Below, one piece after another: positions 1 to 39,851 of a stretch of DNA of 64,000 nucleotides (position 1 is its first letter; each line of letters opens with the position of its first letter). Position numbers and translations under genes: made by a program. The notes beneath the pieces were generated by a model. It ran no database searches. It saw nothing but the letters and a program-made list of their open reading frames with translations, and was not told where the DNA came from. The stretch is taken from the NCBI GenBank assembly GCA_030407315.1, contig JALQPE010002358.1:1-64000 (forward strand), read 5' to 3'. Origin of the DNA: Asparagopsis taxiformis (taxonomy: Eukaryota > Rhodophyta > Florideophyceae > Bonnemaisoniales > Bonnemaisoniaceae).

Positions 1-1915
1 GCTCTGGGTATGGTTGAAAGGCAACGTCACGGCATTCAGCCTCACAGAAGAGCCACAATGCAACGCGCCGACCCTAATGAGGAGCTGTTCGGAGACACTG
101 AGAGAACAGCTTCTCCAGTACGGGATTCTCCGCCCGGCGGGAACGGAACGAGCCCGAATGCTAAACGCAGACGACTAGATGAAAGCCCTTCTGGTGCAGG
201 AAGCTCGAGCAGGAATAGCGGTAACAGCGGTACCGCCGAAGCGGCCAGAGCTGATATAAAATCCATGCGTGCAGAAGATGAAGTGTTGATTCCTCCAGAA
301 ATGGACAACATGAAGGATCTGTCCTGCATACTTTCAACTGCAGCTTCAGAGACCTTTTGAAGAACTATGACGCTGTTGACAATCCTCGAAAGCCGCAAAT
401 CCGGGAAGGTGCTCAGTTGGTACTCACTGACCCGCCGTACATACTAGGCGTATGTCTGGCAGAGGAAACTCTGGTTACGATGTCCTCCGTCAGGAAGAAA
501 TCGAATACACGGTAGCTGAAATTTCCAAGGTGACGCGCAAGGGTGGTCATGTTCTCATATTCACATCTGCTGCTCTTTTCTACAATTGGGTATACGAGCT
601 TCGCAAAGTGAAATACTCTACGGGTAGTCCTATGTTCGCGGTTGATTCGCAGCCTATCGTCTGTACTCGGAGCCCCACCCATTTTACTTCGCCTCCGTAT
701 AGGATTACGACCAGTTTGTTAAATGTGGTCGAGCTGGTTGTACATGCTACGAAGCTGGGTAAGGGTAAAGAAGGCTGGGGGATGGTGAACTACCGAAATG
801 CAGGATACATCCCTTCTAGGTTCAAGGCTTGAACAAATGTCATCGACAACATCCCGCGCATCACAGCATCGGAGACGGTGAAATATTTGGACAAGGACAA
901 GAAAAAGGTTACGTTGCGCCCCGAGCAGAAGACCGTAGCTCTCATGCAAGAGCTCATTGGACGTTTCTCAAACCAGGAGACTTGGTCGTGGACATGTTTG
1001 CTGGCACTTTCTCGACTGCAGTTGCATGCCTTACTATGCACCACGGTCAGTACAGGAGGTTTGTGGGGTGTGAGAAGTTCACGGACTGCTTTGAACTATC
1101 CCTTCCTAGAGTCAATCTTGCATTTCTGCAGCAGGTCTCCATTGGGAACTTTGCTCAACAGTCCACGCCCGCCCTGCAGCAGCTGGCCACTTCTCAACTC
1201 GGAACTTCCGATGACGATTCCCACTCGAAGAACCCCTCCAGTTTACCAAGTTCGACACAACTTCCACCCCACCTCATCAGCTTTCTGACCGCCATTTGGT
1301 GCATCCCAGACCAGCACAATGACTTGATACACCTTCCTATTCACAAATGGCCACAATCACTGCTGGGCTTGTTGTCCACCATGGATAGTAAAACCCTGCT
1401 ATCAATTGATGCAATGGCACACAATGTATACGTTGCAACTTCAACTATACCTGCGGCCGTGATGGACTCTTCGCAAGAGTAGATATTGATACAGGAGATA
1501 TCGTCGGGTACTATTTGGGGCAGTGGTTTACAAGGATCTCTACCAAGCAAAACTGAAGACGTTTGGTACGGGTCCGACTTCGTTCTCGATTGAGCGCTTC
1601 CAGAAGTACGCAGTTCAAATCAAGGACCCAAATATCACCTGCTTGCTTCCGTCTACGTCTGGCCGCCCCATCTTCATTGTTCCATTCGAGTATTGCGCTG
1701 CTTCGAAAATCAACGACCCAACGTTCGTGGATCCAGCAGAGGGAACCGATCGCCCGTCGCGAACTGCTAATGTTAGTTGCTCCTCCCCTGTACAAGAACT
1801 CATCAGTGAGAGCTCTGTGTCTAGCTACCAAGTTGTATGTGTTACTGCTAACGAGGCTATCTCAGCTGGATCCGAGCTGTTTATCGAATACGGTCATGAT
1901 TACTTCACTGTCTAG
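1..1915 (+). pseudogene. DNA N6/N4 methyltransferase-like plus SET-domain gene remnant
   Basis: The gene enters from the left edge and is readable only by changing frame several times (near 340, 450, 830, 1450 and 1515). In order one sees a low-complexity linker with a basic KRRR patch, the motif LTDPPY (about 423-440), the strand RKGGHVLIFTS (about 537-570), then DLVVDMFAGTFSTAV (about 981-1025). DPPY followed by the DxFAG motif is the beta-class order of adenine/cytosine-N4 methyltransferases. After a Ser/Pro-rich linker comes a SET-like stretch: GRDGLFARVDIDTGDIVGYYLG (about 1455-1520), ASKINDPTF, and VTANEAISAGSELFIEYGHDYF (about 1845-1910). The methyltransferase part is homologous to the gene at 31395-34264. 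No intron signals were recognised, so decay is the simpler reading. The presence of both folds is seen; fusion into one protein is inferred from order and spacing. Confidence 0.65.
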
Positions 1916-2097
1916 CTGTTACCCTCTCACAGTCAAATTTCACAAATCCATCTCCATTAATGTTTTCACTCTGTTTCCCATACCTTCAATTTATTTTTAT
2001 CGTAATGTACTCTTTCCCCCCAAGCAAGCAATGCGTAGAAAAATTTCCCGTTTGGTACGTAATGCGTCTGCATAAGGTTGGACAAGGTGTATTCTGT

Positions 2098-2146
2098 GCG
2101 TAAAATTTGGTAATTTTTTGGGCTCAAAAATTACCAAATTTTACGC
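2098..2146. repeat. Perfect 21-bp-arm inverted repeat (hairpin)
   Basis: Arms 2098-2118 and 2126-2146 are exactly complementary and enclose the 7-nt loop TGGGCTC. The arms are AT-rich around the core AAATTTGGTAATTTTT. It could be the end or core of a small fold-back element, or an RNA hairpin. Confidence 0.9.
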
Positions 2147-2552
2147 TGCCTTGTATGTGTTCTGGCATAGCCACGGGCACCACACAACCCTACATGGCAT
2201 GTCGAAGGCTGAGGTTTGGATACCAGCCGTTCTTAGTTGTTTGCCTTGTTCCACATGCGGACGGTCTCCGCTTGTTCTTCAGCACAATGTAGAGAGAAAT
2301 GCAGGTACCACAACTGTCTTGTACATTGTACATCCATTCTCGCATTTCGTACATCATGCATGTACCACACGCAGGAAAAGCTGCTCAATGTACATTCTAT
2401 GTGGTATGAAGTTTAACGCTTCTATAATTATAGCGTTAACGCTCCTAGCAACAAAACAGCCCGGAAGAACAAACTGAGCCGTGGTCATCTACATAGTCAG
2501 CTAGTGCTGCTTACATAGTGCTGAGATTAAATTTCGGTGATTTTTCTAGCTA

Positions 2553-2624
2553 TGAAATTACTGCAGTAAAAACTGATCTACCTAAGTGCACTTGGGTAGA
2601 TCACTCTTTACTGCAGCAATTTCA
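2553..2624. repeat. 72-bp imperfect palindrome with no spacer
   Basis: The centre is AAGTGCACTT (2584-2593). Pairing every base p with 5177-p gives 36-bp arms with four mismatches, including a CTGCAGTAAA/TTTACTGCAG block. This looks like a fold-back or MITE-like core. Confidence 0.9.
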
Positions 2625-2943
2625 GCGCAAAAAAGATTACCAATTTCCTTGCCCCGAATATACCTTAGCCTACGTTCTGCAAACACATAGAGATGTAACC
2701 AAATAACTTCTCTGGCTGATTGCATTGCTGGCTCCATTGCTTTTGGGTATGCCCAGGACCGTTACTGCCCGCAGCTTTTGTAACGGCCGTACCAATGTCC
2801 TTATCCGTTACATCTTCCGTCCATGCTCGAGACAAGTTTCCCCTGGTCTCTTCTACTTATCCTTCCCTTCTCCTCAGCAACGTTTCCAGTTCTACTCAAG
2901 TACTCTATCCTGGGCGTGAACCATTCAACGGTTTCCAGCAAAA

Positions 2944-4617
2944 ATGAGAGATGATTTATCTTTGACTAGGTTTGCAAAGTTCGAAGAACGGTTCGCATCC
3001 CTCGAACAGTACATGCGCGATTCCCTTTCGTCTATTCAATTGGAGCTGGCGTGTATTCGATACATGGCCTCCGCTGCTGCCGGAACAAGCACTGTCCCTT
3101 CAGTTGTTCTGGATGAGAGATCAAGAAAAGCAGGTCAAATTGCCACGCTGGTGTCTTCTCTGTTCAACAACAGGCAGGTGACATCTCGATTCGTCGCTTT
3201 CAGAACTGTTGCAGAGCTTGTTAAAACCTTTGTTGACGCCAATTTGCTCAACAATTGTAATTCGAGGTCTGCAACATCACCACAGGTGGATTCCTGCACA
3301 ACGTTGCTTCTTGCTGCCCTGTCGTTTTCGCAGACATCAAGTTCAAATTCTGAGGTAAGCCAATCTAAGAGATCTCTTATCGGAACGGCAGTAGGGAAAC
3401 GACATGTGTTCTTAAAACGCTCTATTATCGGAACTGCGTTTATTTCAATGGCAAATGACAGAATTGTGCGATGGAAGGACTCGACGAGCAGGAATGCTGG
3501 GGTCCTCGATCCTGGGGAGGAGGAGGACTTGAACAGCAATGCTCTATCTCGAGACTATGCACTACGCAATGCTACAGTAGTGCCCATCGAAAAGCCGTCT
3601 TGGCTGCACATTTCCCAACGACCTCTTTTCCATGCCATGGATATTTCGATGCCCACGGAGGCAGAACGAAACGTGGAACAGTCTACGAATTTGCAGGTTA
3701 CTCTTTCAAAGCGTCGCCGACTGTCTGGTTCGAAAGAAGCACGCCGTACTGGTACATCCTCTTCATCTTCTTCCGCTGTATCCAACCTTTCTCCGTCTGA
3801 CTTACAGTCTATTCCGATTATTACCTCTGCACTACGGCAGCTTACACAGTTCTTCAACACTTCCCGGAAACGGATGAAAATAGAATTGGTCAAACAAGCA
3901 TTCTTCCTCATCCACCGAGATATGAAGGCAACTGTGGATGTTTCTCCTGCCCATGCTGTTTCCACAACAGAAATGTGTCCACCTGACTCTATTCCGACAA
4001 CTTCGAGAGCTTACGGAACAGGAGAAGAAGCTCTCGAAGTGTACTCAAAAAATGATTCCATCTTCTCAAATTTCATTCTGAGCCGTCCTGAGCTTCACAT
4101 TCAGGTTACTTACATAGTTCAGGTGAGCGGTGATATCGATGGTGAAAACATTGCGAGTACACGAGTGGAGAAGTTGGCTGTCTGTTCATTCTCCTTTCTT
4201 ACTCTAGCTATGATATTGTTATGCAGTTTTTGCCAATGTACACAACTGGAGATGCTCTGTCATCAACCCCATGCTATTCAAGCATGTTATAAGATTGCAA
4301 TATGCCTCCAAGGTTTATTTACCGAAGCCCTGAAACAACAGCCTACATCTCATTTTGGGAAGGATGGATTCCCCTTGCGCGTTACATGGGGACATCTTGA
4401 GCTCCGGGACTACCTCATGGGAGGTGACTGCCTCACGGGGATCATTAGAAAGAAGAGAAACCTAACAGCACAAGAATACGAGTCTGTCCGTTTCGTTTCA
4501 GGCTTCAGGCATACTGAGCGCTCAGAAGATAACCAAGCAAACAGACCAGTTTCCAATCATGATTATGTACCTCTCGAGGAGGATGATGAACTTGGTATTT
4601 CTTTAATTGGCATGTAG
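2944..4617 (+). CDS. Family A coiled-coil protein of unknown function, copy 1
   Basis: This 557-aa frame starts at an ATG. Residues 8-45 form an amphipathic coiled-coil-like stretch (FAKFEERFASLEQYMRDSLS). A Ser-rich basic segment (SKRRRLSGSKEARR, about 255-270) looks like a nuclear localisation signal. It is a paralogue of the protein at 8269-10332: both have the coiled coil, then a helical block, then the shared pattern R-(x)5-TAF-x-SM followed by an R/K-D pair, then PSWL or PKWL. A hydrophobic stretch near residue 400 (SFSFLTLAMILLCSF) is absent from the paralogue and could be an unspliced intron or a decayed segment. It converges with the family B fragment at 4749-5609. No known domain was recognised; a role in DNA or chromatin binding for a transposon is only inferred. 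Confidence 0.55.
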   Translation: MRDDLSLTRFAKFEERFASLEQYMRDSLSSIQLELACIRYMASAAAGTSTVPSVVLDERSRKAGQIATLVSSLFNNRQVTSRFVAFRTVAELVKTFVDANLLNNCNSRSATSPQVDSCTTLLLAALSFSQTSSSNSEVSQSKRSLIGTAVGKRHVFLKRSIIGTAFISMANDRIVRWKDSTSRNAGVLDPGEEEDLNSNALSRDYALRNATVVPIEKPSWLHISQRPLFHAMDISMPTEAERNVEQSTNLQVTLSKRRRLSGSKEARRTGTSSSSSSAVSNLSPSDLQSIPIITSALRQLTQFFNTSRKRMKIELVKQAFFLIHRDMKATVDVSPAHAVSTTEMCPPDSIPTTSRAYGTGEEALEVYSKNDSIFSNFILSRPELHIQVTYIVQVSGDIDGENIASTRVEKLAVCSFSFLTLAMILLCSFCQCTQLEMLCHQPHAIQACYKIAICLQGLFTEALKQQPTSHFGKDGFPLRVTWGHLELRDYLMGGDCLTGIIRKKRNLTAQEYESVRFVSGFRHTERSEDNQANRPVSNHDYVPLEEDDELGISLIGM

Positions 4618-4748
4618 AACTGTTCTAGCTGGAACACCGCCGTCTTCATGTGACTGTAGTAGTTCCCATTGCTTGCCTCTGCTCCGCAATGTATGCTTCA
4701 GAATAATTAAACTAGTTCTTCCATGTTCATCTCACTACCTGTATCATT

Positions 4749-5609
4749 TTATGTACTCCTCTGCCCTTTTCTCTGATTCACTATACCCACCACATCATTG
4801 ACCACATCTTCCGATATTAACTTGCCTATTCTACATGGTTCTTCCACACCACGGAATATGACATACGGCATATGCACTCTCAATGTTCCCCACAACATGT
4901 CACCAGCCCTTCCTCTTTTCCTTTGCGTCGTAGGTTCCCATTCAATGCGGAAACATTTCTTTCTTTCGCTTCTCCACCCTTCTAGACTCCCGTCACCATC
5001 GAACCCCCCGTGCACGCCACATATCGAGGGACATTCCTGCAGCTCCATTCCGTTCACATATTCACCTTGGACTACAGCACTACCGTTGCGAGCCAGACAA
5101 CATACGTTCAATTTAGATCCGGCAATGCAGAACGAGCTACTGCCAATTGCAACAGATGTCGACTGTGCTTCCATCGTTTCCGAGCACAATATCGTACCAA
5201 ACAACCGCAGAGCACATGGCCTCGCTGTTCCGTTCATGTCACCACACTCTTCATTCTCCTCCCCTTCCGAGTTGCTTATGTTACGCCTATGAACCAGAGA
5301 CTCAGTTCGCCATCTGTGCCCCAATCCTAGCAGATCCGATAGTGTGGAAAAACTGGAACACGTAATGTTCACAGCTTCTCCGCCATTTCCAGCCACTGCC
5401 GCGTGAAGCCCTGGGTACACTTTGTAATACCCCCCTCGATAGGTTTCTGCTGTTCCCTTTAGCATTTCCCGGAATAGCTCAGTGCTCAATGAGATTGGAA
5501 TCTGGACAGGTCCGCTAATAGCCGTTCCACTCGTGCATGCACCGTCAATCTCACCATGTGGGTAGCCACCCCCTGGGGTTGACAAAGTGCTTCGATTAAC
5601 CTGTTCCAC
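4749..5609 (-). pseudogene. Family B protein, C-terminal half only
   Basis: This 286-aa frame has no ATG at its 5' end (it opens at GTG). It corresponds to the C-terminal domain of the complete family B protein at 5884-7398. Shared landmarks are a central (A/K)LR(L/V)(F/L)G strand (CALRLFG versus CKLRVLG), a W-P-T segment before the end, and a closing block in which MPYVIFRG matches LPTVTFFG. The Tudor-like N-terminal domain and coiled coil are missing. It ends convergently with the family A gene at 2944-4617, about 130 bp away. It is probably a truncated copy of the gene next to it. Confidence 0.5.
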
Positions 5610-5883
5610 AACTTCACTGCGTATGAAATATTTGCAGATATAATATATTTAGATTAGTAAAACCATTGGAAATAATACAGCTCAAGACAGTACTAGAAAC
5701 AATGGCTATATATATTATAAAATCTATTTCCAGCACGTTATGTTCCGAATTTTTGCAATGGTATGGCGGACTTGAAATCTACGCCACGGTAGCTATTGTT
5801 TAATGTATCTTTTGTAAAACCTTAATGTTTCTCTGTCTTGAATGTCTTGGTACCAGTACTCGTTCACTTTATTGATTCTTTTA

Positions 5884-7398
5884 TCAGTGAATCGCTTGAT
5901 CAATTATCTTTTGAGATAACATATCCAGAACTTCATCACAAGTTGAACTTCCAAAGAAAGTTACTGTTGGTAAGACAAGCTCAACACGGCCAACTACAAT
6001 ATCTCCATCATAACATGAATTCTTTGACCAACTTCTAGCTGGAAGCTGAGTCAGTGGACGCCACAGTAGATGGAATGCTGTTTCCTTCAGAACATTGCCT
6101 CCTCCACTTTCAAAGGGATCGGAAACTGAAAGTTGTGGAAGTTCTGTCTCGTTAAGGCGATGAATGAAATGCCCATTTTCATTGTCCCAAGCCATAGAGT
6201 TTCTTTCCAGGACAACTTTGTTACCGTTTCCAATAATTGAGTTTTCCAGTTCTTTCCCAGCCGTCAACCCGAAAAAGAATTTTGCATTTCCTTGACTTTC
6301 GTCCTCCTCAAATCTAGAGACACCCAGAACTCGCAATTTACAGTTATGGTTACCCTTGCATTCTCTTAGTTTCCATATAGCTCGTTGACGATCTGATTGA
6401 TCCCACAATCCTATCCAGTTGCAAATTCCCCCAAATCCAGAGAACGTGATGTAGAATCGTGAAGCAGAAATACCTGGGCGCTGCATAGTGTTGAAATCAG
6501 GCCAAAACGAAACATTTTCTTGTCCTCTCGATATATTCTCTGCTATCCATCTCCAAAGTAGAAGGTCACAGTCAGCTGTAATTGATATGTTAGACTGCGT
6601 GAACCGTCTTCCTGGTGCTCGATCAGCGCTTTCGAGTTTTGGATACTGGTGTAGCAGTTGTAACATTTTTCGGCGAAGCGTTGCTTTGAAGACATTCACT
6701 CTCCCTTCTTTCATAGATTCGCTTCCGGCATCAATACGGTCGACGAGATTTTTCTCTAGTTTGCTCACTCGACGATTTAACTGCAAATACGATGTTTGGA
6801 TTGCATCCATGTGGTACTTCACTAAGTCTTCACCTCCTCGAGATACAGTAGATTTGCCTTCATTTGGTATATGGACGCCAGCATCTCCTTCACATTCATA
6901 TCGAGAAGACATGTCATTGCAGGGATCATAGTCTTGTAGACGCCACGAAACTTCAGGATTCAATTCATTTGAAACGGGCAATTCCTGTTCCCTAAGCAGG
7001 TTTCTTCTTAAAAAGAATACTTCACAGACCTGAGGCTTTAATCCGTGCATACCATGATACCGCAGGGTTCCATACCCAATGACGTCCCCGATATAAACCC
7101 TGTGAATTTCTTCAATGTCTGCCTTCCACCAAACCATCTCTCCGTCACTGAGCTCCCATAGAACTTCTATCAGATCTGTCTCTTGCGGAAGCTCTTCTAC
7201 ACTTTCAAGTGTATGTTTGGAAGATCCAGTGCAGGGTGTCTTGGTGATGATTCTCGGCGGAGTTGAAAGAGAACAAATTGGAGCGCTTTGTGACAGGGAA
7301 CTGGATTTGTTTGGAACAATTCTTCGAGGCAAATATGAAACTCTTTTCGATTTTCTCTTAGGATACCTTCTTGACAAAGAATGCTTAGCTTTCGCCAT
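5884..7398 (-). CDS. Family B protein: Tudor-like domain, coiled coil, novel C-terminal domain
   Basis: I take the ATG at 7398 as start (504 aa), because the protein then opens with a basic segment (MAKAKHSLSRRYPKRKSKR) like its relative at 23904-24776; an ATG at 7464 would add 22 hydrophobic residues. After the nuclear-localisation-like tail comes a Tudor/SH3-like segment around residues 65-130 (VLWELSDGEMVWWKADIEEI, then a YIGD turn and a beta-rich end). A short coiled coil (LNRRVSKLEKNLVDRI) follows near 200-220, then a conserved C-terminal domain shared with 4749-5609. It is divergent to the family A gene starting at 8269. Tudor-type barrels bind methylated lysine or arginine; that role here is inferred. 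Confidence 0.55.
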   Translation of the reverse strand: MAKAKHSLSRRYPKRKSKRVSYLPRRIVPNKSSSLSQSAPICSLSTPPRIITKTPCTGSSKHTLESVEELPQETDLIEVLWELSDGEMVWWKADIEEIHRVYIGDVIGYGTLRYHGMHGLKPQVCEVFFLRRNLLREQELPVSNELNPEVSWRLQDYDPCNDMSSRYECEGDAGVHIPNEGKSTVSRGGEDLVKYHMDAIQTSYLQLNRRVSKLEKNLVDRIDAGSESMKEGRVNVFKATLRRKMLQLLHQYPKLESADRAPGRRFTQSNISITADCDLLLWRWIAENISRGQENVSFWPDFNTMQRPGISASRFYITFSGFGGICNWIGLWDQSDRQRAIWKLRECKGNHNCKLRVLGVSRFEEDESQGNAKFFFGLTAGKELENSIIGNGNKVVLERNSMAWDNENGHFIHRLNETELPQLSVSDPFESGGGNVLKETAFHLLWRPLTQLPARSWSKNSCYDGDIVVGRVELVLPTVTFFGSSTCDEVLDMLSQKIIDQAIH

Positions 7399-8268
7399 GG
7401 TTTCTTTCAAAGTTTCACAGAAAACAAATTCCAGCGGAAAGGAGAACAGCTTGATTAGATCCATGACGCTTTGAAGATTGTCTATTTATACCACGTATAT
7501 GTCCTCTTACTCTTCCGTATTTTTTGGACGCAGAGTAATGCCGCTAGAGATCAATTCTAGAAACACTTTCTGTTACACCTGATAGATACCCAAATTCCCG
7601 CAAATGGCAGAGAAATAATATTCATATACGTTCCTACCTGGGCAGACGTATTCTTGACTTCAGATGGAGCACAGGGCAAACGTATAGAAAAGATTGTATC
7701 CGCTTGATATGAAGAATGGATTCACACTGGAAGTAGTGTAACGGCGAGAAACAGCACAGGATTTTGGATTATAACAACATTTAGATCCCCAAATGGTACG
7801 AAGAGGTCGGGTGAAGATCTGAAAACCTCTTTGAAATAGCCGTTCATCACAGAAAGTGATTGGAAATCGGTTGCCTAGTGGGTCTCCATGAGGATTTCGC
7901 GTAAAACTTGCGTCACGCAACGATACGGTATCGATAATTTTTCAGACAGGAATATGGTTCCTAGAGCATGTAAGCTCTCACCATCCAATTTTCTTGAACT
8001 GATAGAAGAATCAGGCCGAGAAATAATATGAATACTCAAGGACTGAAGCTCGTCGAGAACGTATAAATTCATCCGGTCCTCTTCATAAAACAAATCGAAA
8101 CGGGTCGAATAGAACGACTCATGTATCACGTGTAAAGTTCTAGAGAATTCTTCAATCCGTTCAACTCATTTTCAGCCTATAGAAGATGGTATCCCATCAT
8201 GCATTGGAATTTGGAGGCTAGGGTAGCATTCACAACTAAATAAACCTTGGGGAATCAAGGGAAAATGG
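7399..8268. other. Region between divergent family B and family A genes
   Basis: This 870-bp gap separates the divergent starts of the genes at 5884-7398 and 8269-10332, so it should hold both promoters. Two minus-strand frames (7660-7920 and 7875-8129) overlap across one frame change and may be a decayed coding piece, but nothing in them was recognised. Confidence 0.4.
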
Positions 8269-14469: not shown

Positions 14470-15021
14470 AGTCCAGTTGGATATGTTTTACAACTTCGCG
14501 GTCGTGTGAAGAGTGTGCAAACCGAGGCGCGCAGATTGCAAGAACTTTTTGTTTCGGAAACCCGCAAGTATGGGATCCTATAATCAGTTGGATAGTAGAT
14601 GTAGCATGAGCCGTAATGGACATATTCAACCCGTCGCAAGTGTGATACTGTTCTGCAACCCCTGCCCTAATGTGTTGATGATGGATAGACAGCTTTCAGC
14701 GTATGTGGACACAAATTCAATTTCAATTGGCTGGAAAATTCAAAACTCAGGTACTATCATAACTTGTAATCCAAAATATCCACTCTCTGATATATCTCCC
14801 CTGCCTTTGCCGAATAAAAGTTGAATCACACAACTACTTCAATGCATCAATGGCACGTTGGGCTTACCTCTTTAATTGAATGGAAACGGCGCGTGAGTTT
14901 CCTACAGTATTTGACCCTCATTCCCAAACTGCAAATTGCTTCCAGAAGTATCATTGCTTCATTGCCTAGCAAACACCCGACTCTATGCTCCTGGAGCTAA
15001 GGTGCCTTGATTCGAGGTGAG
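14470..15021. other. No recognisable gene
   Basis: A gap between the bromoperoxidase remnant and the 3' end of the next minus-strand gene. A minus-strand frame at 14435-14629 overlaps the presumed bromoperoxidase N-terminus but was not recognised. Confidence 0.35.
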
Positions 15022-23903: not shown

Positions 23904-24776
23904 CTATTTTCTTGATTTCATTGTCACGGAATAATTATTCTGTACGCAGTGTTTCTCTACCGCACGCTGCAAGAGCATTAACAAAATCTTACCAGCCGAT
24001 ACTGTTGATGCACAATTTAGAACCCTTTCGTTCCAACCAAGCCGAATCTCGCTAGCATTTCCAGAAAGCATTATATTTTCTAGTGTTCTCAGCCTTGTCT
24101 CCATACCACTGTATGTTTTGACGTCAAGTCCTGATTCCACTTTTGGCTTCTTCCTCTGCGGTGATATCGCTTCAGATTCTCCATCTGATTGGTCATGACG
24201 TTCTACTCTCTCCGCTTCGTAATCCACAGCCTCTCCATTGCTCGTTCGCCACGGTGTCGGGGGCTGGCCCCCCGACATCAACTTATTTCCGAGCAGAAAC
24301 TTTACGTTTTCGTAGGCGACACAAGGATAATTCATTTCAGGAATAGCATCGTATAAAAATCTGCCTTCTGCCACTGCCATTTCATTATGACTCGGCTTCA
24401 CAGCGTTCGAATGCCGCCACGTAGTGACTTCCAAGACTGAAATATCCTTTTCCTCCCTTGTCAACCTCACGATTGCATCATCCACATCCTTTCCATTCTG
24501 CTCCACCACACCAGGCGTGTACATTCCATCTCCTCTGTCTACGTCGATGCGGTCTCCCACTGACGGCTTACCACTGCAGACAGGATACTGCTCAGGAAGT
24601 TTCATTTCCACAACCGTAGCCTTCCACCATATTGCGTCATCGCCAACTTGGAACCATACGTCTATTTCCGTTCCGACACATGGGAGTGCATCTACGGCAG
24701 CTGCCCGCTTACGCTCACGACCAGCTTTCGCTTTTTCGCTCTGTCGCCTAATTCGCAATGATTCACGCTTCGTCAA
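23904..24776 (-). pseudogene. Family B protein, N-terminal half (Tudor-like domain)
   Basis: This 290-aa frame opens at TTG; no ATG lies nearby, so the start is unknown or spliced. It has a basic tail (RRQSEKAKAGRERKRA), then DVWFQVGDDAIWWKATVVEM at about residues 38-58, which aligns with LWELSDGEMVWWKADIEEI of the protein at 5884-7398. After a second beta-rich segment and an acidic/basic linker (SPQRKKPKVE) comes the same short coiled coil (METRLRTLENIMLSG). It stops where the conserved C-terminal domain of the family should begin. It converges with the transposase gene at a distance of 1.4 kb. It is either a truncated copy or a form in which only the reader half is kept. Confidence 0.5.
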
Positions 24777-26403
24777 AGTTCCTCCACGAAATAAAGACTC
24801 TACAACGCACTATCTGCAATTTGGTTTAGGACAAGTCTTCGTCGACTTCTTCACTAGATACTACTTCACCCATGTCTGTAACGTCCAATTTTTCATTTTT
24901 ATCGTATGATACGAAATCACTACCTTGTTCCCCACTGCCGCACAAGTTTTCAAATCCACTAATACTGCGTTTAAGAAACTAGTAACGCTTAAAGCCAGGC
25001 CGGAACTCACTATTCAGGTCAATCTTGTGTATGCGGGAGTGACTTTATTACAAAATTTTGCGACTTCGACAGTAACTATGCCGTAGTATCTGTGCTAAAA
25101 GCCAACATAGATGGTGCCATTCTTTACTAAGTAATACTACAGAAACTAAACTCAAGTACAATTATCTACTCTTTCGACCGTACCCTACCCATGGTAGAAC
25201 AATGAACATAACGAGATTAGCTAGTTCACGTCATACACTCTTTATCTCGCCTCTTTCATATGATTCTGCATGGATGTCCAAAACGTGACGTCATCGAAGC
25301 GTATGGCGCGTTGGAACAGTCAGTACCACTCCATCCCTCTACCGTCACTACATTGCTACGACTACCACCAGTACCTCAGACCGGCGTGACCATCAATGTT
25401 CATGGTTCGAGTCCAACATGGTACTGTCATACATATGGTTCCCTCGTTTCGTGATTCCAGCAAGTAAATTCTAAAAATAATGGAATATGCCACCTCCGGT
25501 CACCGTCATGACCAACGCGACGTGTTTTTGTCCTTTCCAATGTTATTTTTCCGTACAGTAGTGGAAAATTCCAGCATGTCACGGTGCTTATACCCACTCC
25601 CACGGCGCAGTTTCATTCCACTCTATTCTTACGGTATTTCCACTACTTATCTATGGCACGGCGCCGGTAATTTCTGCGATTTTTTATGGTTCGTCATTCC
25701 ACTAATTTCTAATGGTCCAGACCATAAAATTTACTGGTTTTTCAAAAAATTGCTTATCCTGTGCTCCCAGAGCCGGCTCGACAAAGCTTTTGCAGCAGCC
25801 ATTGTAGAGCTGACGGACGGCGTGACACTTACCGGCGCCGATGAAGACCTCGCACTCGTAGAATTCGATGCAGATAGACTTATGGCGTCGAACTACTTAT
25901 CGGCGATGGACCTTTTGTTCCGACTGAAGCGTTTGCTGTACTCGACTTAGAAGCATCCACAGACGGTGCAACTGAAGTCGAACCAGCACTTGCAGATGAT
26001 ATCGCCAATCCATTCGACGTATTCGACGGCGACGGATTCGCGGAATTACTCGCTACGGTTGACGGACTCGGTCCTGATGAGAACCATGGCCGGTTGGTAG
26101 CCCTCGGAACAACTGTTGGTGATGTATTCGGTGTTGTAGCGGTCGATGTCGACGACATGGATAGATGGAAGCTGGGAGCGGACAAACATTGGGCTACAAG
26201 TAGTGCAGTGGAAGGCGGGTGAATAGGGTAGTAAACGGCAAGGTTTCGTACCAGTGAGAGTGACATTTCACGAACAGCATGGAGCGAGTCACGCGGTAGG
26301 CATCCCATGGGGATCATAGTCGGCCATATGGAGCGCTGGGAGACAATGAGCAAAAGCAACAGAGGACGGTATGAAAGGATTGCTCGAAAAGTGGTGCAGA
26401 TTT
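24777..26403. other. Mostly non-coding; possible acidic coding remnant
   Basis: No recognised gene. On the plus strand an Asp/Glu-rich reading runs from the end of the frame at 25480-25950 and, after one frame change near 25918, continues to about 26223 (DDIANPFDVFDGDGFAELL). Its opposite strand is an open Ser/Thr/Pro frame, so the signal may be compositional. The region from 25250 to 25750 has many ATGGT/ACCAT and CCACTA words that could be subterminal repeats of a transposon; this was not proven. Confidence 0.3.
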
Positions 26404-26440
26404 GAGTAGCGCTTCACATATAATATGTGAAGCGCTACTC
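26404..26440. repeat. Perfect 37-bp palindrome
   Basis: Eighteen-base arms (26404-26421 and 26423-26440) flank a single A and are exactly complementary; the core is GCTTCACATAT/ATATGTGAAGC. It lies where homology to TOG-domain proteins ends. Confidence 0.95.
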
Positions 26441-27479
26441 GCGTTGGAGTCCTTTGTAAGTATCTTTCGAAGGCGAACAAAGATTTCTTGGTGGGTCCCA
26501 GGGACTAGTCTGGCATCACCAATGATACTGATCGCAGCGTCCAGTGCTTGTTTACGAGCACTCCACTTTTTCGAATCGAGCGCAAAGTACCAATCTTTGG
26601 TGACCCCTTCAATCTCAATCTTGACTTTGCTGAGTTTTTCAAGAAGGTCGATTTCCTCTGCAAGATCAATTTCCTCTTCTTCGGCGATTCCGTCGCCGAA
26701 TCCATCGTATTCATCACTACCACCGCCCTCTTGTGCGCTGGCACGAACACGCTGCTCCATAGCGCGAGTTAGTTTCTTGGGTTTAGGTTTTCGATTTTCG
26801 CGTTGGCTTCGAAGGCGGCTTCGACCTCTTTGGCAGTGACCTCTTTCGCGTTCTTCACGACGACTTTAACTTTGTCGCCTATCCAACGGTGCAATTCGAT
26901 GACCAGTGCTTTAGCAGCGTTACGAACCGTTTCCTGAGAATGTCCGAAAAGTGGGGGGAGTTTTGTTGTAATCGCAAGAATAGGTACTGCGGAGCTTTCA
27001 TACGTCGAAAGAGCTTGTAAGATGCTGTCCACAGAAGCGGCAACAACTTTGGGGGTTCTGTGCTTGAAACCGTTAGCAGCCATGGTTTCCATCGCCACAT
27101 CACCCGCGTCTGCGCCAACAAACATTAAAAACGCATCAATTACTTTGCTCTTATTAAGAGGCCGACCAGCCAAACCTTTGTCTACGATGCCCTTGACAAC
27201 GTCTGTGGCGACTCGCTTGACTAGCGGCGGAGGAGCGGTATCCGCAAACTTTGCAATAGCTTCGAAGCCAATGAGCTGAGCGGGGGCATTTGCGTCGCGA
27301 GCAATTTTTGGAAGTGCAACCACAAAGTCTGTGTAAATCTTGCTGTCCTCTGGAGCGACATTGAATTTGTCAGTGAGTTCGCGGTAGGCGGCTTCTCTAA
27401 CCTTCCAGTTTTTGTGCGAGGTACGTTCAGAGAGCGGTAGCTTTGCAGCTTCTGCAACGGGATCAACGTCCGGTTCCAT
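26404..27479 (-). pseudogene. XMAP215/CKAP5/MOR1-type TOG-domain microtubule protein, 5' fragment
   Basis: The ATG at 27479 opens a full first TOG domain (236 aa): LPLSERTSHKNWKVREAAYRELTDKF, then HEAT-repeat helices including KSKVIDAFLMFVGADAGDVA. A frame change near 26775, in a run of four A residues, leads into a basic linker and an acidic stretch, then the start of TOG2 (DWYFALDSKKWSARKQALDA and VRLRKILTKDSN). Homology ends at a perfect palindrome after about one third of TOG2, whereas the family normally has two to five TOG domains. These proteins bind tubulin dimers and speed microtubule growth. Truncation at a palindrome suggests a rearrangement breakpoint. The frameshift looks like loss of one A and might be a sequencing error. 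Confidence 0.8.
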
Positions 27480-27990
27480 GTGTGTTTAAGAAGTTGGGTA
27501 CGTCAGGTGTGAGATGAGTGATGAAGCGCAAGGTATAGAAACAAGCACAGAGAGCCGCATATGAGTGCTGGGATAGATGCAGGCGAAAGCGAGTGACAGA
27601 GTTCAGCGCTGCCCAAAAATTGGCGCTCGTTGCGCCGACCCATTTGAAGTTTTGAATCTGAGCATTACAGTATTGAATTAAGCAGCGATTGCTGGAATAA
27701 TGGAATTAATTTCTGGGCATTGCAGGATAGATGCAACTGTTTCTTTGCACATGTTGCGAGCACAACTTTTCAACTTGTTCCCGCCCGTCGCTACGGGGGA
27801 AAAGGTCTCTATTGTCGTTGTCGCGATTCATTCGCACACCCTTTAAAAACGACGACCGCAATGCCAATCAAATGCGCTTGGCAAGTTCTCAAACCGGCTT
27901 GCAGTGCATCTACGAGTGATACGAATCTCACATGATTTCGTTCACAATTGTGACGCACACATTTGGTTTCCGTTTAATTGGACTACTGCA
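27480..27990. other. Upstream region of the TOG gene; no gene seen
   Basis: About 500 bp between the TOG start codon and the 3' end of the small membrane-protein gene. It should hold the TOG promoter. Small plus-strand frames at 27720-27935 have no features of a gene. Confidence 0.35.
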
Positions 27991-28182
27991 CTACACGCTT
28001 TTTCGCAAGCCCAGCAGATAATAAATGAGGTAGGCCACTAAGCCGAGCAGAAGAGTGACTATAAGGAACATGACGAAATGATCTGGATCATCATGACGAC
28101 TCTCGGCATGGGCTTTGGAGTGGCGCTCACTTGGCAGGCGTCTTCTTCTCGCAGTTGTAGAATCTCCGTTGGTCGTATCCAT
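27991..28182 (-). CDS. Small tail-anchored membrane protein
   Basis: The ATG at 28182 gives 63 aa. A basic, hydrophilic N-terminus (RRRRLPSERHSKAHAESR) is followed by one C-terminal transmembrane helix (FVMFLIVTLLLGLVAYLIYYLL) and a short LRKSV end, which is the layout of tail-anchored ER proteins. The segment ERHSKAHAES faintly recalls the EKHSKNI region of RAMP4/SERP, but that match is too short to name it. It is divergent to the M50 protease remnant, with only 36 bp between the two start codons, so the two would share a promoter. Confidence 0.55.
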   Translation of the reverse strand: MDTTNGDSTTARRRRLPSERHSKAHAESRHDDPDHFVMFLIVTLLLGLVAYLIYYLLGLRKSV

Positions 28183-28218
28183 CGCGCTCTGTTTCACAAC
28201 ATTCTAACCTTGCGGTGA

Positions 28219-29120
28219 ATGGCGCTCGACAACCGGCAGCGAAGCACGAGTGCCGGCATCTTCCTGCTCGGATTTATCATTTTCATTCACGAAAGCGGTC
28301 ATTATCTAGCCGCTAGACTACAGGGGAGTCGGGTGAAGAACTTTTCTATTGGGTTTGGTCCCAAGCTATTCTCATTCACGGCGGACGATTCGGAGATGGA
28401 ATTCACTGTAAGAGCTCTGGCACTGGGAGGTTATGTAGCGTTTCCGGAACATTCGCGTATCGACGCGGAGACGGAGGAGGAAAAGATCGACGACGATCCT
28501 GACTTGTTACAAAATCGTCCTGTTCTGGATCGAGCGATTGTGATCTCGGCTGGGGTTATTGTGAATATTATTCTAGCATGGGATGCAATTTTCACGTCTG
28601 TTTCGTCAATCGGGCTACCGACGTACTCGTTCAACGCTGGTGTGACGATTGCAAACATAGTGGACAGCAATGGTGCGGGGGCAAAAGCTGGTCTTACTAT
28701 GGGCGATGTGATTCTAAAGGTGGACGGGGAGACAGTACCAGAACCATTGGACAGCGCGAGTATGGTGGTGGAGAAAATCCGGACGAGTCGAGAACGCGCG
28801 ATGAATTTTCGAGTATTACGCGAGAAGGAATTGAATATGTCTGTTAGAGCGAAATGCTTTTGAAGCAGACGCGGAAGGGAGTGGCTAGTATATTTACAAA
28901 CTTTGAGCAATCTTCAAAGCAGCTTTCAGGACCGATTGGCGTCGTGTCTATGGGGGCGGATTTGGCGCGCAACGACACGGCAGCACTATTGAAGTTCTGC
29001 GCTGTGTTTCCATTGCATGGCAAGTTGACGCTCACCCCTGTCTCGTTGCTCCCAGTTGAGCCCAATATGCCTCAAGTTTGTACCAATTCTGCGGAATCGC
29101 GCACACTAACGGATTGTTGA
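28219..29120 (+). pseudogene. M50 site-2-type zinc metalloprotease (RseP/S2P-like), decayed
   Basis: The ATG at 28219 opens a frame with the first transmembrane helix and zinc site FLLGFIIFIHESGHYLAARL (HExxH), then FSIGFGPKLFSF and LALGGYVAFPEH, all hallmarks of the family. A PDZ domain follows (DSNGAGAKAGLTMGDVILKVDGE). The frame ends at 28863. The continuation is in another frame (28854-29120) and shows QLSGPIGVVSMGADLARNDTAALL, but the last transmembrane helix and the NxLPxPxLDGG zinc ligand motif are scrambled (LTPVSLLPVEPNMPQ), and about 35 residues of PDZ sequence are missing. Family members cut membrane proteins within the bilayer; cyanobacterial-type versions act in plastids. This copy could not be active. 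Confidence 0.8.
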
Positions 29121-29345
29121 TGACTTTTTCTAGTGTTCAGCTCACGCATCACGCTTATCAGCAGATAACCTCCTGTCGTCGCTATTCACTAGCATGACGG
29201 AAGAGTAAAATGGTTGCTGACATTTATGTTTCTACTCCCATAGATCTAGTTGACATCGAAGTGTTTGGAAAGTAAATGTATCTAGCACTCCTCCTCGAAG
29301 ATAAGGTACATCTAGAATAGCAGAACTTACACTAACTGAATCTGT
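29121..29345. other. Short spacer, no gene
   Basis: Nothing was recognised between the protease remnant and the DUF7869-type derivative. Confidence 0.3.
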
Positions 29346-30167
29346 TCAAGCACGACCAGTCTTTGGTAGCAAACAAGGTTGGTATTTGCAGGTTAGTGCA
29401 TGACCTGCACACTTCTTGTACCAGTGCAATTTGAAGTGGGAGACGTTGCATTCTCGATCTTTCTTCGTTGAGAGAATCTTGCCAAGCCAGAAAGGCTCCT
29501 CAGATGTACAACCGTCTCCTTTGATAATAACAAATGAATTGGTTGCATATTTTTCATCACTATCACCACGTTCGACACAATCGTCTTCATCGGAACCATT
29601 ACTACCATTATCACCGCATCCATCGCCACCACCATCTCCGAAATCAATGCACTGCTCAGATATATTGTCTTGTTCATCGCCCTGCTGTTCTTCTACGTTG
29701 TTACCTGACAATATCCTCTTAGTCTTCTATAGAATATCTCTTGAATAAAGGAACGTAGAAATTAGAAACACATAACAAACTCGTATTGTGCCATATTTGT
29801 AACACTTGAAATCCTTCACGAACAGTGATTCCAGAAATAAACGCAGCTCCGCTTTGTTCATTTTCGCAACTCTTTTCAGGTCTTCACAGAGCTTTTCTCC
29901 ATCAACATGCTTGAAGCAGAAATCCTTACAGCAGGTTAAACTTTTTAGCTCCTTGTCACTTACGCTTTTCTCAATTTCAATGGCTTTGGTAGCCCTCTTC
30001 GCCTTTAGGCCGCTAGCCTGAGCTTCTTGGATGCGTTTCCCAGAGCGGGAGGAGCCAGAGTTGGCTGAACGTGGCGCTTTCCTCCCTACCGTAGAACGGA
30101 TATTGACGACCGGGGATGTGCGAGGAGACTTTTTCGCTAGAGTCTTCCGTTTCACTGTACCTTCCAT
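29346..30167 (-). mobile_element. Internally deleted DUF7869-type transposon gene
   Basis: The ATG at 30167 opens 146 aa with a Lys/Arg/Ser-rich tail and a cysteine-containing segment (LTCCKDFCFKHVDGEKLCEDL, then MNKAELRLFLESLF) of the kind found at the N-terminus of DUF7869 proteins. The next frame (29711-29346) carries the C-terminal module only: EEPFWLGKILSTKK, then HFKLHWYKKC, then KYQP. This matches MPFWLGQI, LFIRWYEVYDKG and GKYRP in the larger copy at 49776-51029. The whole catalytic middle (DN, NK, GHTHSDID) is absent. A possible small intron (GTTATG to TTGTCAG) could join the two frames. It is a non-autonomous derivative, like deletion derivatives of other DNA transposons. Confidence 0.6.
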
Positions 30168-31394
30168 GGTGTTTCTGACAACCCATCACATTTCGCCAAT
30201 GTAGAGTAGCAGCTACAACGCAATTAAATAAAAACAGAACGATGTTCTGAAATTTGTATCATAACGTCGCTCTGGCTGGAAGCTTCCAGCAACACAATTG
30301 ATATTTGATACGAACTTAAAATTTTTAATGTTCTGTAAACTTTCCAAAAACCTTTACACTTGTACAGAAAGGTGCACAACTTCTTCCCGAGCCCAAAAAC
30401 ACTACGAGACTATCCAAATTCCCTTTGTAGATTGCAAGAAATTTAAGTAACACTGAACTGTGTTCTGGTTCTCGCATCAGAACCTTGTTCTGTCTCGAAG
30501 CGTCCCGCCCAAAAATGACCAGAACGGTTTAGACCCAGTAACCGTTGCGAAGCTATTAAAATCCCATATGTACTCTCCATAAAGGTTAGGTGAAAAAGAA
30601 CTGTGTTCAGGTTATATCATCAGAATGACTTTCTGTTCAGAAGCTTCCAGCCCAAAAGAGACATTCAGAATTAATTGGAACTATTTTTCTGTCGACTATG
30701 CGGACCGGAAAATGTGACACGGGAGGTGAATACATCCTCCAAGTTGGACAAGATTGATACCTATCCGCGAATATTGATATTTGATGCATAGGTTTCAAGT
30801 CCTAAGATTAGCTTGAGCATTCTGACACATCATCTCGGGACGATTATTTCCATTTGAATGTAACCTCGCGAGACTATACCCTTCAAAATTGCCATCGGAA
30901 TATCAAAAAATTTTGGGCCCTAAGCCCACCAATTATGGTCACTCAATGCAGTCTATGTGAAAAACGTTTCTATTGGTTATGCGAAGGATAGAACAAAATA
31001 TCTGTTGTCAAATACTGATATTTTCTAGACAGATAAACGACACCATTGGCCCGGCTTTCTATTCCATATATCACTTCCATATAGTTTCTCATCTCTCTGA
31101 TGACCATGTGATTGCCAGGTGTGCCGAAAGTACTACTCCCGAAATGCAGATTGATTGGGAGGAATGAAATCTGACTGAAATGCAACTTTACAAATTTTGA
31201 ACTCGTAAAAGGTTCACTGACTTACTTATCATGGAACTCAACACTTGCGAGAAACCTCTTCATGTAGCAAAAGGAGGCTCCAATCATTCAATTATCCTGT
31301 CGTTTTCGTTCCTCGTTTCTGGACAAAGGTTCAGCCTGGTCAACTTCACAGCGCGAAACCACAGTTTTACTCAGAACTCGATTGTGACCAGAAG
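30168..31394. other. Non-coding region with a degenerate repeated unit
   Basis: No gene was recognised. A unit beginning ACTGTGTTC(T/A)GGTT and ending near CCAGCCCAAAA or CCCGCCCAAAA occurs at about 30455 and 30602, with a third partial copy at about 30235 (GATGTTCTG, then GAAGCTTCCAG). The word TTGATATTTGAT occurs at about 30298 and 30774. It looks like old element sequence. The promoter of the next gene should lie near its right end. Confidence 0.4.
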
Positions 31395-34264
31395 ATGAGT
31401 AAGCGATTCTTTCAAGCAAAACACAAAATGAGCTCGACAGAACCTAGTTCTGGTCGGGAGGATGCATCCGTTAAAGCATTGTTTGCTGATATCATGGAAG
31501 GCTCGACAAACAGCCGTGTAGATCCTCGATCTTGCATTCCGTTGACATCAATTCGTCAAATATCCCGCTCTGGTGTCTTGAGATTGAAGTCTATATTCAG
31601 TGGAGGTTCCACAGTTTCTTCGGGAAAGAGAGATGGAATGCCCATAGAGAATATTGGAGATGGATTTGTTGCTGGATCTGATAATGCTATTGTTGTAGAG
31701 CTAACGGGAGGTTTGAAAAGACATGTGTTGGACTTCTTCCGATCTAAACTCGGCTCGGACGGGGAACCTATCTCTGAATCCCAAGCCGCAGAAAAAGCAG
31801 AAGGTCGTTCTGTCTGGTACGGAGTAGTAGACGGAATGCACAGAATGACTGCTATTCGTGAATTAATAGACGAAGATCCAGAACACTGGGAGTCTTTCTT
31901 GTGGCCTGTGACTATTCCGAAAGGCGGACACAGCTTGCAAACTTTGAAGCAATTAGGAAGGAATCAGAATAAGAAACATGATGCATCCTTTTACATCGAA
32001 TCAACTTTCTATGATACTTTGGTCGGTATAAGAGATGAAGCTGACCGATTGAAGACCATGTCGAATGGTAGAGCTCCATCTGCGAAATAGATCGCTTCAG
32101 CGTATGATGGTTGTACGCATCTGAAGGACAATACTATAAGACAAGCAGCAACAACAGCAGTTAGACTTCCACTAAGTGTAATACATGAGATCGGAGTAAT
32201 CATGAACGAAGAGCACCCGGATTTGGCAGAACCAAGTTCTGCTGAATATAAACCGCTGGAAAAATCCATGAATATGCGATGCACCGATTGTCGAGTATAC
32301 AGGAAATTCATCAACATAACTTCAATCAAGTCCGCGACAAATTTCATGAGAGCCTCAGGTCCGGACGGAGAAAAGAATCAAATCAACACGTTCCACCGGC
32401 TGAGGGAAATTTCTAGAACGAACAAGTTCAAAGCAGCATCGTATAAGGTAACAGTGGAGCAGTTTGAGAGTGCTTGTAGTGCAATGAGGGAGGCTCGAAA
32501 GTTTGAAGCTCTTTTAGAAGATGATGAATGGCCGTCTGGAATGGAAGTAGTCAAGCACAACTTACTCCGTACCACAAAATTTGATTGTGAAGTTACTGCC
32601 AATTTCGGGAATGATGGAGATGTTTTAGATTCTCTTCTTAAACAATATCGGAAAGTTTGTCCTGAGGCTGCACCCCTTAAAGAAAAAAGTTTTCCGAGAA
32701 TTTCACCAGGGAGAAAGAACTTCAGGCTAAAGACAATTGTACTGCCTTAGCTTCCGCGGATGATTCTCTTCCAATCGCAGCTGAAGATATCACTAAAGGG
32801 GGTGAAGTTTCTGAAGATCAAGTTCCACATCCAGTGCCGAGCATCACTATAGAAGGAAAGGCACCAAGAACATTACCACAGGATCTAGGCGATATGCCTC
32901 AATCAGAAGTCTTGACCAAACCTAATTCGGAACCAAATTCCGTTCAACCGAAGCAGGTTAACAGGAATAATTCCGCTCCATCAAACGCTCCGAGTGCCAA
33001 TTCTGTCCGACTGAATACGCGTCCAAAACGAGTTGCTTGTACTACAGAAGTGCTGGATGAGAAAATTAACTATCTTGACGAAATGGGTGTTTCATGCCAC
33101 CAGATGAAATGGCAAGATTTTGATAAGACCGTTTGGACAGATGGTGATGCTCTCTTCGATCTTATACTGACAGATCCACCGTATGGGACGCCTAAATCTC
33201 GTTCTTTGCGAAACACTTCTTACGATAACTTCATAGATGACAAGGAAGTGAAAGAGATATGTCAGTTTGCCAGGCGCGTCTTGAAGCCGGGAGGGTGGTT
33301 TCTTGCATTTGTTTCATTTCGAAACTTCGAACTTTTCTACAACGAACTTCACCGCATCGGATTTGCCGGACCAGAATACCCATTCGTAATTATGAAGGAT
33401 ACCAGTACGATGCAAGCTCACAGAGGTGATCAGTTTCCTCAGAACGCTTGTGAATTTTCTGTCATTGCAAGGGCACCAGGAATTTCGAAAAGTGCATTCA
33501 AGCCAGATTTGAGGAGCCCTTACAACTTCGTTCCTTCAAAGACAAGCAGACGGTTTGCTGCTATGTCAGGTATACCCGTTTCAAAAGAAAAGCTCCTTTT
33601 GCCAGGCACGAAATCTCCCGTCCTAACAGAGGAGAAAAATGTGGGTCTGCTTGCTGAACTAATCAATACATTTTGTCCAGAACGGGGTTCTGTTTTGGAT
33701 ATTTACGGAGGTACTTTCACTACTGGAATAGCTTCGATGCGAACTGCACGTTCATGTGTAGTAATCGAGTCAAGCGCATCTACATTTCGTCTTGCCCATG
33801 AGAGGCTACGTGCAGTGGCAGAGATACTGTATCGAAAAAGTCCATCCTCACACCACGCAATGAAGAAGAGAAAGACACGAGAGAATTCAAAAGCTGAAAG
33901 CAGTGGAGAAATCACGAAGATGATCGAAAAGAGCAGTACTATTGTTCAAAGTGGAAAAGATATGCTGAAAGGAGGGGACAGAGTTGAATTACTCCTTGAT
34001 GGAATCACTATTGGTCATGCAAAGCTTCTGTCAGCTCCAGATAGTGACAGTGATTTACATACTTCTATTCATAATGTTCCTCTCTCTGAGTACGAGAAAG
34101 ATGGACAGAAGCTAGTTGCATGCTATTCCTTCAAAGTTAAGGAGGATGCTGGCGATAAAAAATACCCATATGGTTATGGAGGCATCGAGAAGCCTCCGGG
34201 AAACCTGAAGGGCTTAGCGGGAATATTCTCTTGGGACATACACAGCATGAGATGTTCCAATTGA
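31395..34264 (+). pseudogene. ParB-like / DNA methyltransferase fusion gene with two lesions
   Basis: The ATG at 31395 (MSKRFFQAKHK) starts a protein of about 950 residues once two lesions are ignored: an in-frame TAG at 32088-32090 and a one-base loss in a run of A at about 32685. The N-terminal part has a ParB/Srx-like core ending in WYGVVDGMHRMTAIREL, with the GxHR box intact. A helical region and a Pro/Ser/Asn linker follow. The methyltransferase domain shows DLILTDPPYGTPKS (about 33163-33200), RRVLKPGGWFLAFVS, and GSVLDIYGGTFTTGIASM (about 33686-33740), the beta-class order of N6-adenine/N4-cytosine enzymes. A beta-rich tail (GGDRVELLLDGITIGHAKLL) ends the protein. ParB-methylase fusions are known from bacterial phage-like elements. 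The Copia LTR begins 23 bp after the stop codon. Confidence 0.7.
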
Positions 34265-34286
34265 GATAATGATGTTTGCGAATGTG

Positions 34287-38850: not shown

Positions 38851-39034
38851 GGCTCTGCAATAAGTCTTATCTGTTCGACCCTTCCCAAGTGGACAACCGA
38901 TAGTCGTCTAGGACCAAGCTGGGATCTATAGGATAGAGACTTTTAGCTAAGAGCAAGATGAGTGGAGAACAAGAAAACAAGGTTTATGAAAGAGAAATCA
39001 GCTAGATTTCTATTGTGTCTAGAGAAAAGGAGTA

Positions 39035-39551: not shown

Positions 39552-39730
39552 TGTGGATAGAGTTGATGAGAAAACCAAACGTCCGATGAGTTTATTCGGT
39601 GATATGTAAAGGCTATAACGCTATACCGATCAGGACAAGGTCACTGTCTTACAAGAGCAGGACCGAGTTGAGAAAGGTATAGACTAGCCAATATAAAAGC
39701 AAAGGCCAATTCCAGTAATTGGGCCTTGAA

Positions 39731-39818: not shown

Positions 39819-39851
39819 CCTTCGCACGCGAACCCCAGATGAAAGAATGAT

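Follow-up and report, generated by a model that had tools for sequence, protein, structure and literature searches.

We analysed a 64,000-nucleotide stretch (C2232:1-64000, hereafter the window) of a 141.5-Mb eukaryotic assembly of 3156 contigs, and searched that genome for copies of its parts. The locus is several large transposable elements nested and piled together, and not the one CACTA transposon carrying a whole set of DNA- and chromatin-modifying genes that a preliminary description had proposed. It contains an EnSpm/CACTA-like element with a transposase (E2), inserted in a gene of an outer, high-copy element (E1), and beside them a cut segment of a third repeat (E3); a sister element of E1 (E4) occurs in contig C398. 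The locus offers a clean case for reading ends, empty sites and recent movement. The features of E1 and E2 are as follows, with the basis for each in brackets.

1..5614, no strand: E1, left of the E2 insertion (copy recurrence)
1..1912, plus: E1 methyltransferase-SET gene, 3' part, N4/N6-type (Pfam; the 5' part is in contig C2231)
2920..4617, plus: A1, family A gene of E1 (genome-wide matches)
4749..5614, minus: C-terminal half of the interrupted E1 gene B, in frame B1, 4749-5648 (empty-site join)
5615..23951, plus: E2, complete EnSpm/CACTA-like element (copy boundaries; ends and flanks read)
5884..7485, minus: B2, family B protein of E2, "Tudor-like" by eye only (shuffle test against the rejoined E1 protein B)
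8227..10332, plus: A2, family A protein of E2, coiled-coil by eye (shuffle test against A1)
15022..17841, minus: P, 939-codon frame of E2 (dioxygenase-like relative at the C-terminus; ParB in the N-terminus by eye only)
18380..22507, plus, ATG at 18449: E2 transposase, tnp2/Transposase_21-like (open frame, profile, own-genome relatives)
23952..24809, minus: N-terminal half of the interrupted E1 gene B, in frame B3, 23904-24809 (empty-site join; 43% identical to its E4 counterpart)
23952..25763, no strand: E1, right of the E2 insertion, terminus ...TTGCTTATCCTGTG (copies stop here)

E2 is 18,337 bp long, with ends CACTGCGTA...TACGCAGTG, and is flanked by a TT duplication at 5613-5614 and 23952-23953. 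The CACTR terminal inverted repeat of EnSpm/CACTA elements is present (CACTGCGTA is found at both ends), and when CACTR pairs were scanned for blind, without any use of copies, the 5615/23951 pair was listed first, tied for the top score. DNA identity with other copies starts at 5613-5615 (C483, C250, and C398) and stops at 23951 (C250 and C398); the copies share sharp ends and have unrelated flanks. The C398 copy differs from the window within 12520-14823, and the C483 copy leaves its contig at the equivalent of 23608. The preliminary description expected matching CACTR ends with 3-bp target duplications, as in EnSpm/CACTA elements; the ends were found in E2, and the duplication is 2 bp in E4 and in all three E2 copies with both ends seen (TT in the window, CA in C398, and GT in C250). 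Over 17,996 bp the C483 copy has 100% identity to the window, yet it lies at a different site, adjoining Ty3-type sequence, so E2 moved very recently. The transposase has 57 matches in its own genome, with copies of at least 84% identity on nine contigs (C483, C2232, C2231 (the same locus), C398, C250, C2228, C2797, C2798, and C768). All copy numbers given here are lower bounds, because part of the candidates was scored (transposase, 34 of 1840; A1, 78 of 1247; window 1-5614, 27 of 742; E3, 19 of 490; right side of E1, 40 of 232; leftward extension in C2231, 29 of 1758); adjoining contigs may count one locus twice, as C2231 and C2232 do, which biases the numbers in the opposite direction.

Frames B1 and B3 lie on opposite sides of E2 and run in the same direction on the minus strand. 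Rejoining the flanks with one TT gives an open frame of 573 codons; with 0, 1 or 3 bases dropped at the join, the longest frame is 291-328 codons. B1 and B3 are one E1 gene split by the E2 insertion, and the three family B genes counted earlier become two, B2 and the interrupted gene. The E2 copy at C398:27454-47066 splits gene A of E4, where removing one CA restores the open frame. The nesting is real: B of E1 and A of E4 each become an open frame again once a single duplication is taken out. E2 encodes B2, A2, P, and the transposase and no other gene from the earlier list; both methyltransferases, the SET domain, A1, and the split B gene fall outside it. The recurrence of families, taken before as the cargo of one element, has its source in two related nested elements plus a third repeat. 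Ends close around the transposase that exclude the other genes had been named as an observation that would count against the single transposon, and half of this is what we find, as E2 excludes the E1 and E3 genes and keeps A2, B2, and P.

Recurrence in the genome sets E1 apart from E2 as a high-copy element of its own, probably of a broadly similar type, with A, B, dioxygenase-like, and methyltransferase-SET genes. Window 1-5614 recurs at 98-99% identity: the A1-B part is present in all 25 scored places besides the window and C2231, and the entire 1-2134 in 20 of those. At E<=0.001, A1 finds 78 matches, which fall into a close group (42, with 94-100% identity) and a more distant one (36, with 80-85%). 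Two of the close group represent the locus analysed here, and further overlaps between neighbouring contigs are possible. On the right side, matches at 35 of the 39 other places end at query 1810-1820, which corresponds to window 25761-25771 (one of the 35, in C2000, stops at its own contig end), three stop earlier (1432, 1536, and 1572), and one, in C635, continues to 2089 and shares the flank. The right end is placed at 25763 because three copies read there diverge after a shared terminus (...CTTATCCTGTG or CTTTTCCTGTG). This terminus is CACAGG, of the CACAG type, unlike the CACTG of E2.

Contig C2231 overlaps the start of the window and is the same locus (99.82% agreement over 24.4 kb). It extends E1 leftward with a dioxygenase-like gene (21708-23888) and, from 24884, the beginning of the methyltransferase-SET gene; E1 copies share C2231 from 21795 on only. 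Of the 44 alignment columns in which C2231 and the window differ, 12 fall in window 26-2839, and the final ~600 bp of C2231 account for another 29. The methyltransferase-SET gene of the window has frame-breaking indels that are absent from C2231. As the differences cluster at both contig ends, contig-end errors are the best explanation for the broken frames in window 1-1912.

The indels cluster in window 1-2900 and C2231:50300-50935, both contig ends of one locus, and frames of this assembly close to contig ends are not to be trusted. The spacer of E1 contains two hairpin-forming inverted repeats (window 2098-2146 and 2536-2641), and other E1 copies have additional hairpin-like matches at that point of the spacer.

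E4 (C398:22858-66870) is 44,013 bp long, of which 19,613 are the nested E2 copy. It has CACAGCATGAGCAA on both sides and a duplicated CG (2 bp). Between its matching CAC...GTG ends are genes for B, A, two dioxygenase-like proteins, two ParB-like proteins, a methyltransferase-SET protein, and a transposase. The methyltransferase-SET gene is an open frame of 1207 codons; its N6_N4_Mtase domain scores above the cut-off (1.5e-13) and its SET domain under it (E=0.0021, 18.9 bits against 22.4). Identity to E1 is 47% for A and 43% for the N-terminal half of B. The idea of a family of large transposons with DNA- and histone-modifying cargo thus holds for the family, in the E4 set between matching ends, and fails for the locus in the window.

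A long open frame (18380-22507) with an ATG at 18449 bears out the transposase placed earlier at 18449-22507. The piece 20300-21000 has a weak match to Transposase_21 (E=0.0051, 16.5 bits, cut-off 28.6). Against a second transposase, found in C398, the protein scores E=1.2e-47 (E-values of hidden Markov model (HMM) comparisons within the set were computed for 23 proteins plus 2000 shuffled ones), and has own-genome relatives at 32% and 37% identity. No relative was found among 7985 scored candidates in a protein search or in IMG/VR. The CMCT group (EnSpm, Mirage, Chapaev, Transib, and Plavaka) is described in the excerpted text of PMC12730594 as having CA...TG ends, 2-5 bp duplications, and transposases with C(2)C and H(3-4)H between the second D and the last E. 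E2 and E4 have such ends and duplications. CTHC occurs in the translation of the E2 transposase, followed by histidines at different spacing (by eye). Plavaka ends are given as TGT...ACA or CATCA...TGATG (PMC12730594), whereas the ends here are CACTG and CACAG; the Plavaka profile gave only E=0.1. Another family of EnSpm-like transposases, with 37% identity to the E2 protein, occurs at 18 places on 17 contigs (C55, C294, C466, C1550, and others) and was probably active recently, because scores are identical across places.

Families A and B appear to join E1 to E2, a link seen only in the shuffle test. In Smith-Waterman comparisons against shuffles, A1-A2 gave z=7.6 and the rejoined B-B2 z=6.2 (each 0 of 1000 shuffles), so the two family A genes described before stand as a pair; the C398 members of families A and B reached only z=2.3 and 2.8. 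BLASTP found no link for either family at 1e-3, HMM comparison none for A and E=0.017 for B, and HHalign probabilities of 6.7 (A) and 11.5 (B) that are not clear. No Pfam match to Tudor was found for B1, B2 or B3 (Pfam scans covered 20 of 33 frames of at least 200 codons, plus pieces).

P had been called a ParB-like protein, a reading without support in any profile or shuffle test that was run and one we reject. Homology at the C-terminus of P points instead to the dioxygenase-like proteins of E1 and E4 (E=1e-16; shuffle z=18.7). Dioxygenases of the 2-oxoglutarate/Fe(II) type have HxD...H...R in a beta-helix fold. At HxD, the dioxygenase-like protein of E1 and one of the two from E4 have HLD (plus EHAG), and one from outside E4 has HND. 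The dioxygenase-like proteins have no relevant match to a library profile or to a solved structure in the PDB, P has no relative among 5102 scored candidates in a protein search, and a single-sequence fold of its C-terminus had a predicted confidence (pLDDT) of 37 and was unusable. The ParB-like frame of E3 has a DGxHR-type motif by eye, with Pfam DndB as its best profile (E=0.042), and nothing relevant to the ParB-like proteins was found in PHROGs, NCBIfam or PDB.

Both beta-class methyltransferases of the preliminary description were recovered, that of E3 (32681-34264) with N6_N4_Mtase at 7.7e-15 and that of E1 (820-1482) more weakly, at 7.2e-5 and 23.3 bits, below the cut-off of 26.7. The SET domain after the latter, also described there, scored 1.3e-4 and 22.8 bits against a cut-off of 22.4. 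Assignment to the N4/N6 (beta) class follows from the domain above cut-off in E3 and E4 and from DPPY in C2231 and the family. The methyltransferase-SET protein has 37 relatives at E<=0.001 (7996 candidates scored from a 5.8-billion-protein set); precomputed Pfam annotations give N6_N4_Mtase in 37 of 37 and SET also in 22 of 37. DPP is invariant in 18 aligned sequences (17 of the 37 relatives plus the query), and the SET core in their consensus is INDP...GEEL; the usual SET core motif is NHxC. IMG/VR contains at least 85 loci that encode a relative, 80 of which were examined; among the matches listed, the best segments in these 80 cover query residues 140-425 (the methyltransferase part), not SET. 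Among PHROGs, the top hit is to a phage DNA methyltransferase (1.7e-24). The E3 methyltransferase has no relative in IMG/VR.

All four E2 genes are under constraint. Between the window and C398, dN/dS (the ratio of amino acid-changing to silent substitution rates) is 0.26 for B2, 0.28 for A2, 0.32 for P, and 0.50 for the transposase, with a significant silent excess for each gene (Fisher p 1e-8 to 0.003).

The probable explanation, in our view, is a nest in which an EnSpm/CACTA-like E2 jumped into gene B of E1, with a cut E3 beside them, and in which cargo genes may mark the elements that carry them. The E2 transposase presumably cuts at CAC...GTG ends. From domain knowledge, we predict that the fused methyltransferase-SET protein could write both DNA and histone methylation, and that dioxygenase-like and ParB-like partners may bind the element or remove marks. 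The net effect may be that silencing is escaped or transposition timed. If the methyltransferase-SET protein does mark its own DNA and nucleosomes, it would be a rare transposon-borne two-layer epigenetic writer.

Several observations weigh against this reading. We saw no transposase in E1, whose left end was not located, and no CACAGG terminus was found within C2231:11001-50935, nor by a looser search of C2231:11001-31000. The E4 transposase is spread over more than one frame. One in-frame TGA of the methyltransferase-SET gene persists in both the window and C2231. The window A1 is near-neutral compared with other E1 copies, with pN/pS of 0.69-1.05 in all six comparisons. The E2 genes of the window and C250 differ by 3 to 23 changes per gene, and their ratios of 0.19-0.67 come from too few changes to tell. 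HxD is replaced by PRT in P and by HFA in the other E4 dioxygenase-like protein. "ParB", "Tudor", and "dioxygenase" are putative assignments read from motifs, without support from a library profile or solved structure.

A bolder version of the proposal is tentative and, in our view, somewhat unlikely. There would be an EnSpm-like lineage with a full kit, consisting of a polypeptide that methylates both DNA (N4C/N6A) and histones, ParB-like binders, and dioxygenase-like erasers, which would write and erase its own epigenetic state. E2 would be a pared-down relative, left with A, B, and a dioxygenase-like protein that has lost its catalytic activity, and it may prefer to insert in its bigger cousins (two of the four flanks seen).

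It is unlikely that the accessory genes are chance passengers (Pack-type) with no role for the element. The same kinds of gene occur in E1, E2, and E4 with diverged sequence (the E1-E4 identities of 47% and 43% given above), and, compared with C398, the accessory genes of E2 are constrained at least as much as its transposase. Passengers would fit the evident host fragments in E3 (TOG and an RseP-type protease), the near-neutral A1 among recent E1 copies, and the broken frames in E1 and E4 genes.

We regard one giant CACTA transposon over 1-34264 with every listed gene as very improbable, despite the presence of all the genes within 34 kb and of such a set in the sister element E4: E2 copies stop at 5615 and 23951, 35 of 39 E1 copies stop at ~25763, and the query that found the 19 E3 places has no match to its E1 part at any of them. 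An origin of the genes in an integrated large DNA virus, or in something virus-like, is equally improbable. The N4/N6 methyltransferases are of phage type by the PHROG match, and at least 80 IMG/VR loci match the methyltransferase domain; those listed have their best segments in residues 140-425 and not in SET, the E2 transposase and E3 methyltransferase lack IMG/VR relatives, no capsid or packaging gene was found in the frames scanned with Pfam, and transposon ends and target duplications are present. An ordinary host chromatin-gene cluster near an unrelated transposon deserves hardly any credence: nothing was found in its favour, and the parts are repeated through the genome with ends that coincide, A1 at 78 places, the methyltransferase-SET part at 20 or more, and E3 at 19.

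Classical plant CACTA elements (En/Spm) encode TNPD plus TNPA and have CACT ends and a 3-bp duplication. E2 has in common with them a TNPD-like transposase and CACT ends. Unlike En/Spm, the elements here have three or more accessory genes that are not TNPA-like and a 2-bp duplication, and E2 lacks repeated subterminal motifs above shuffles.

Giant elements with cargo are known from algae. Giant EnSpm elements with multiple accessory genes occur in red algae (PMC12477816, on Petroll et al. 2025, Curr Biol, Bostrychia moritziana; here and below we draw on excerpts of this source), and resemble those here in the EnSpm-type transposase, giant size, and several accessory genes. Algal transposons, red algal ones included, carry ParB-methyltransferase proteins, for red algae by citation in that source (PMC12477816). 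Sola1-1_Ec32 of Ectocarpus encodes an accessory protein with ParB plus an N4C/N6A methyltransferase, on the strand opposite the transposase; Sola1-1_Ec32 and giant EnSpm/KDZ elements are giant DNA transposons with nested insertions, as here (PMC12477816). As described there, Sola1-1_Ec32 is a Sola1 element, whereas E1 and E4 are EnSpm-like with the methyltransferase fused to SET, and the ParB-like/methyltransferase pair here sits in E3. A role of ParB-methyltransferases in evading silencing or timing transposition has been proposed for Ectocarpus (PMC12477816).

In fungi, a dioxygenase of TET-positive EnSpm/Plavaka/KDZ transposons is proposed to counter silencing, and these elements share CA...TG ends, 2-5 bp duplications, and dioxygenase cargo with those here (PMC12730594). 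The elements here differ from the fungal ones as excerpted there in that their dioxygenase-like proteins have no match among the library profiles and a methyltransferase-SET writer is present too. No methyltransferase-SET gene in an EnSpm element was found in the titles and abstract openings searched, a scope outside which Petroll et al. 2025 and bioRxiv fall. We do not claim that this cargo is unreported, and giant algal elements with accessory genes are, as a general kind, already in print.

The features to the right of E1 are as follows.

26442..34286, no strand: E3, piece of a third repeat that is cut left and right (copy recurrence)
26442..27485, minus: fragment of a host-type gene, XMAP215/CLASP TOG, in E3 (Pfam 2.2e-49; repeated with E3)
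28219..28863, plus: fragment of an RseP-type M50 protease in E3 (Pfam 1.8e-27; TIGR00054 6e-40, 137.4 bits, cut-off 147.55)
31221..34264, plus: E3 gene or genes, a DGxHR ParB/DndB-like frame and then an N4/N6-type methyltransferase (motif and Pfam)
34287..40722, minus: Copia retrotransposon (long terminal repeats (LTRs) 99.6% identical; no target duplication)

All 19 scored E3 places, the window itself excluded, match up to 34283-34284, and 14 of the 19 begin at 26442. In two copies that were read at 26442 and 34284, the repeat goes on past either position, so the E3 of the window is a cut piece. It had been described as encoding a methyltransferase fused to ParB; the methyltransferase stands, the ParB part is a motif read by eye, and here an in-frame stop (32088-32090) and a frame change near 32700 come between the two. 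E3 multiplies the TOG and RseP-type host gene fragments (window 26442-28863), which is likely gene capture. The RseP-type fragment is a hint that the source organism has plastids, and it is probably an alga. A 37-bp near-perfect palindrome (26404-26440) lies exactly at the left cut of E3, and both E3 copies read there lack it and have other sequence instead.

The Copia element is young and lacks a target duplication, which may reflect either recombination between copies or an assembly mis-join; sequence to the right of 40722 therefore need not have adjoined E3. A protein with DUF7869 (49776-51203, Pfam 2.7e-45) runs into a Ty3-type LTR, and a remnant like the DUF7869 C-terminus (29349-29726, BLASTP 6.6e-10) is found inside E3, in window 29349-30185. 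DUF7869 proteins are possibly a further transposon protein family. A tandem duplication with a 350-bp unit (86% alike) is located at 59959-60657, near a Ty3-type element.

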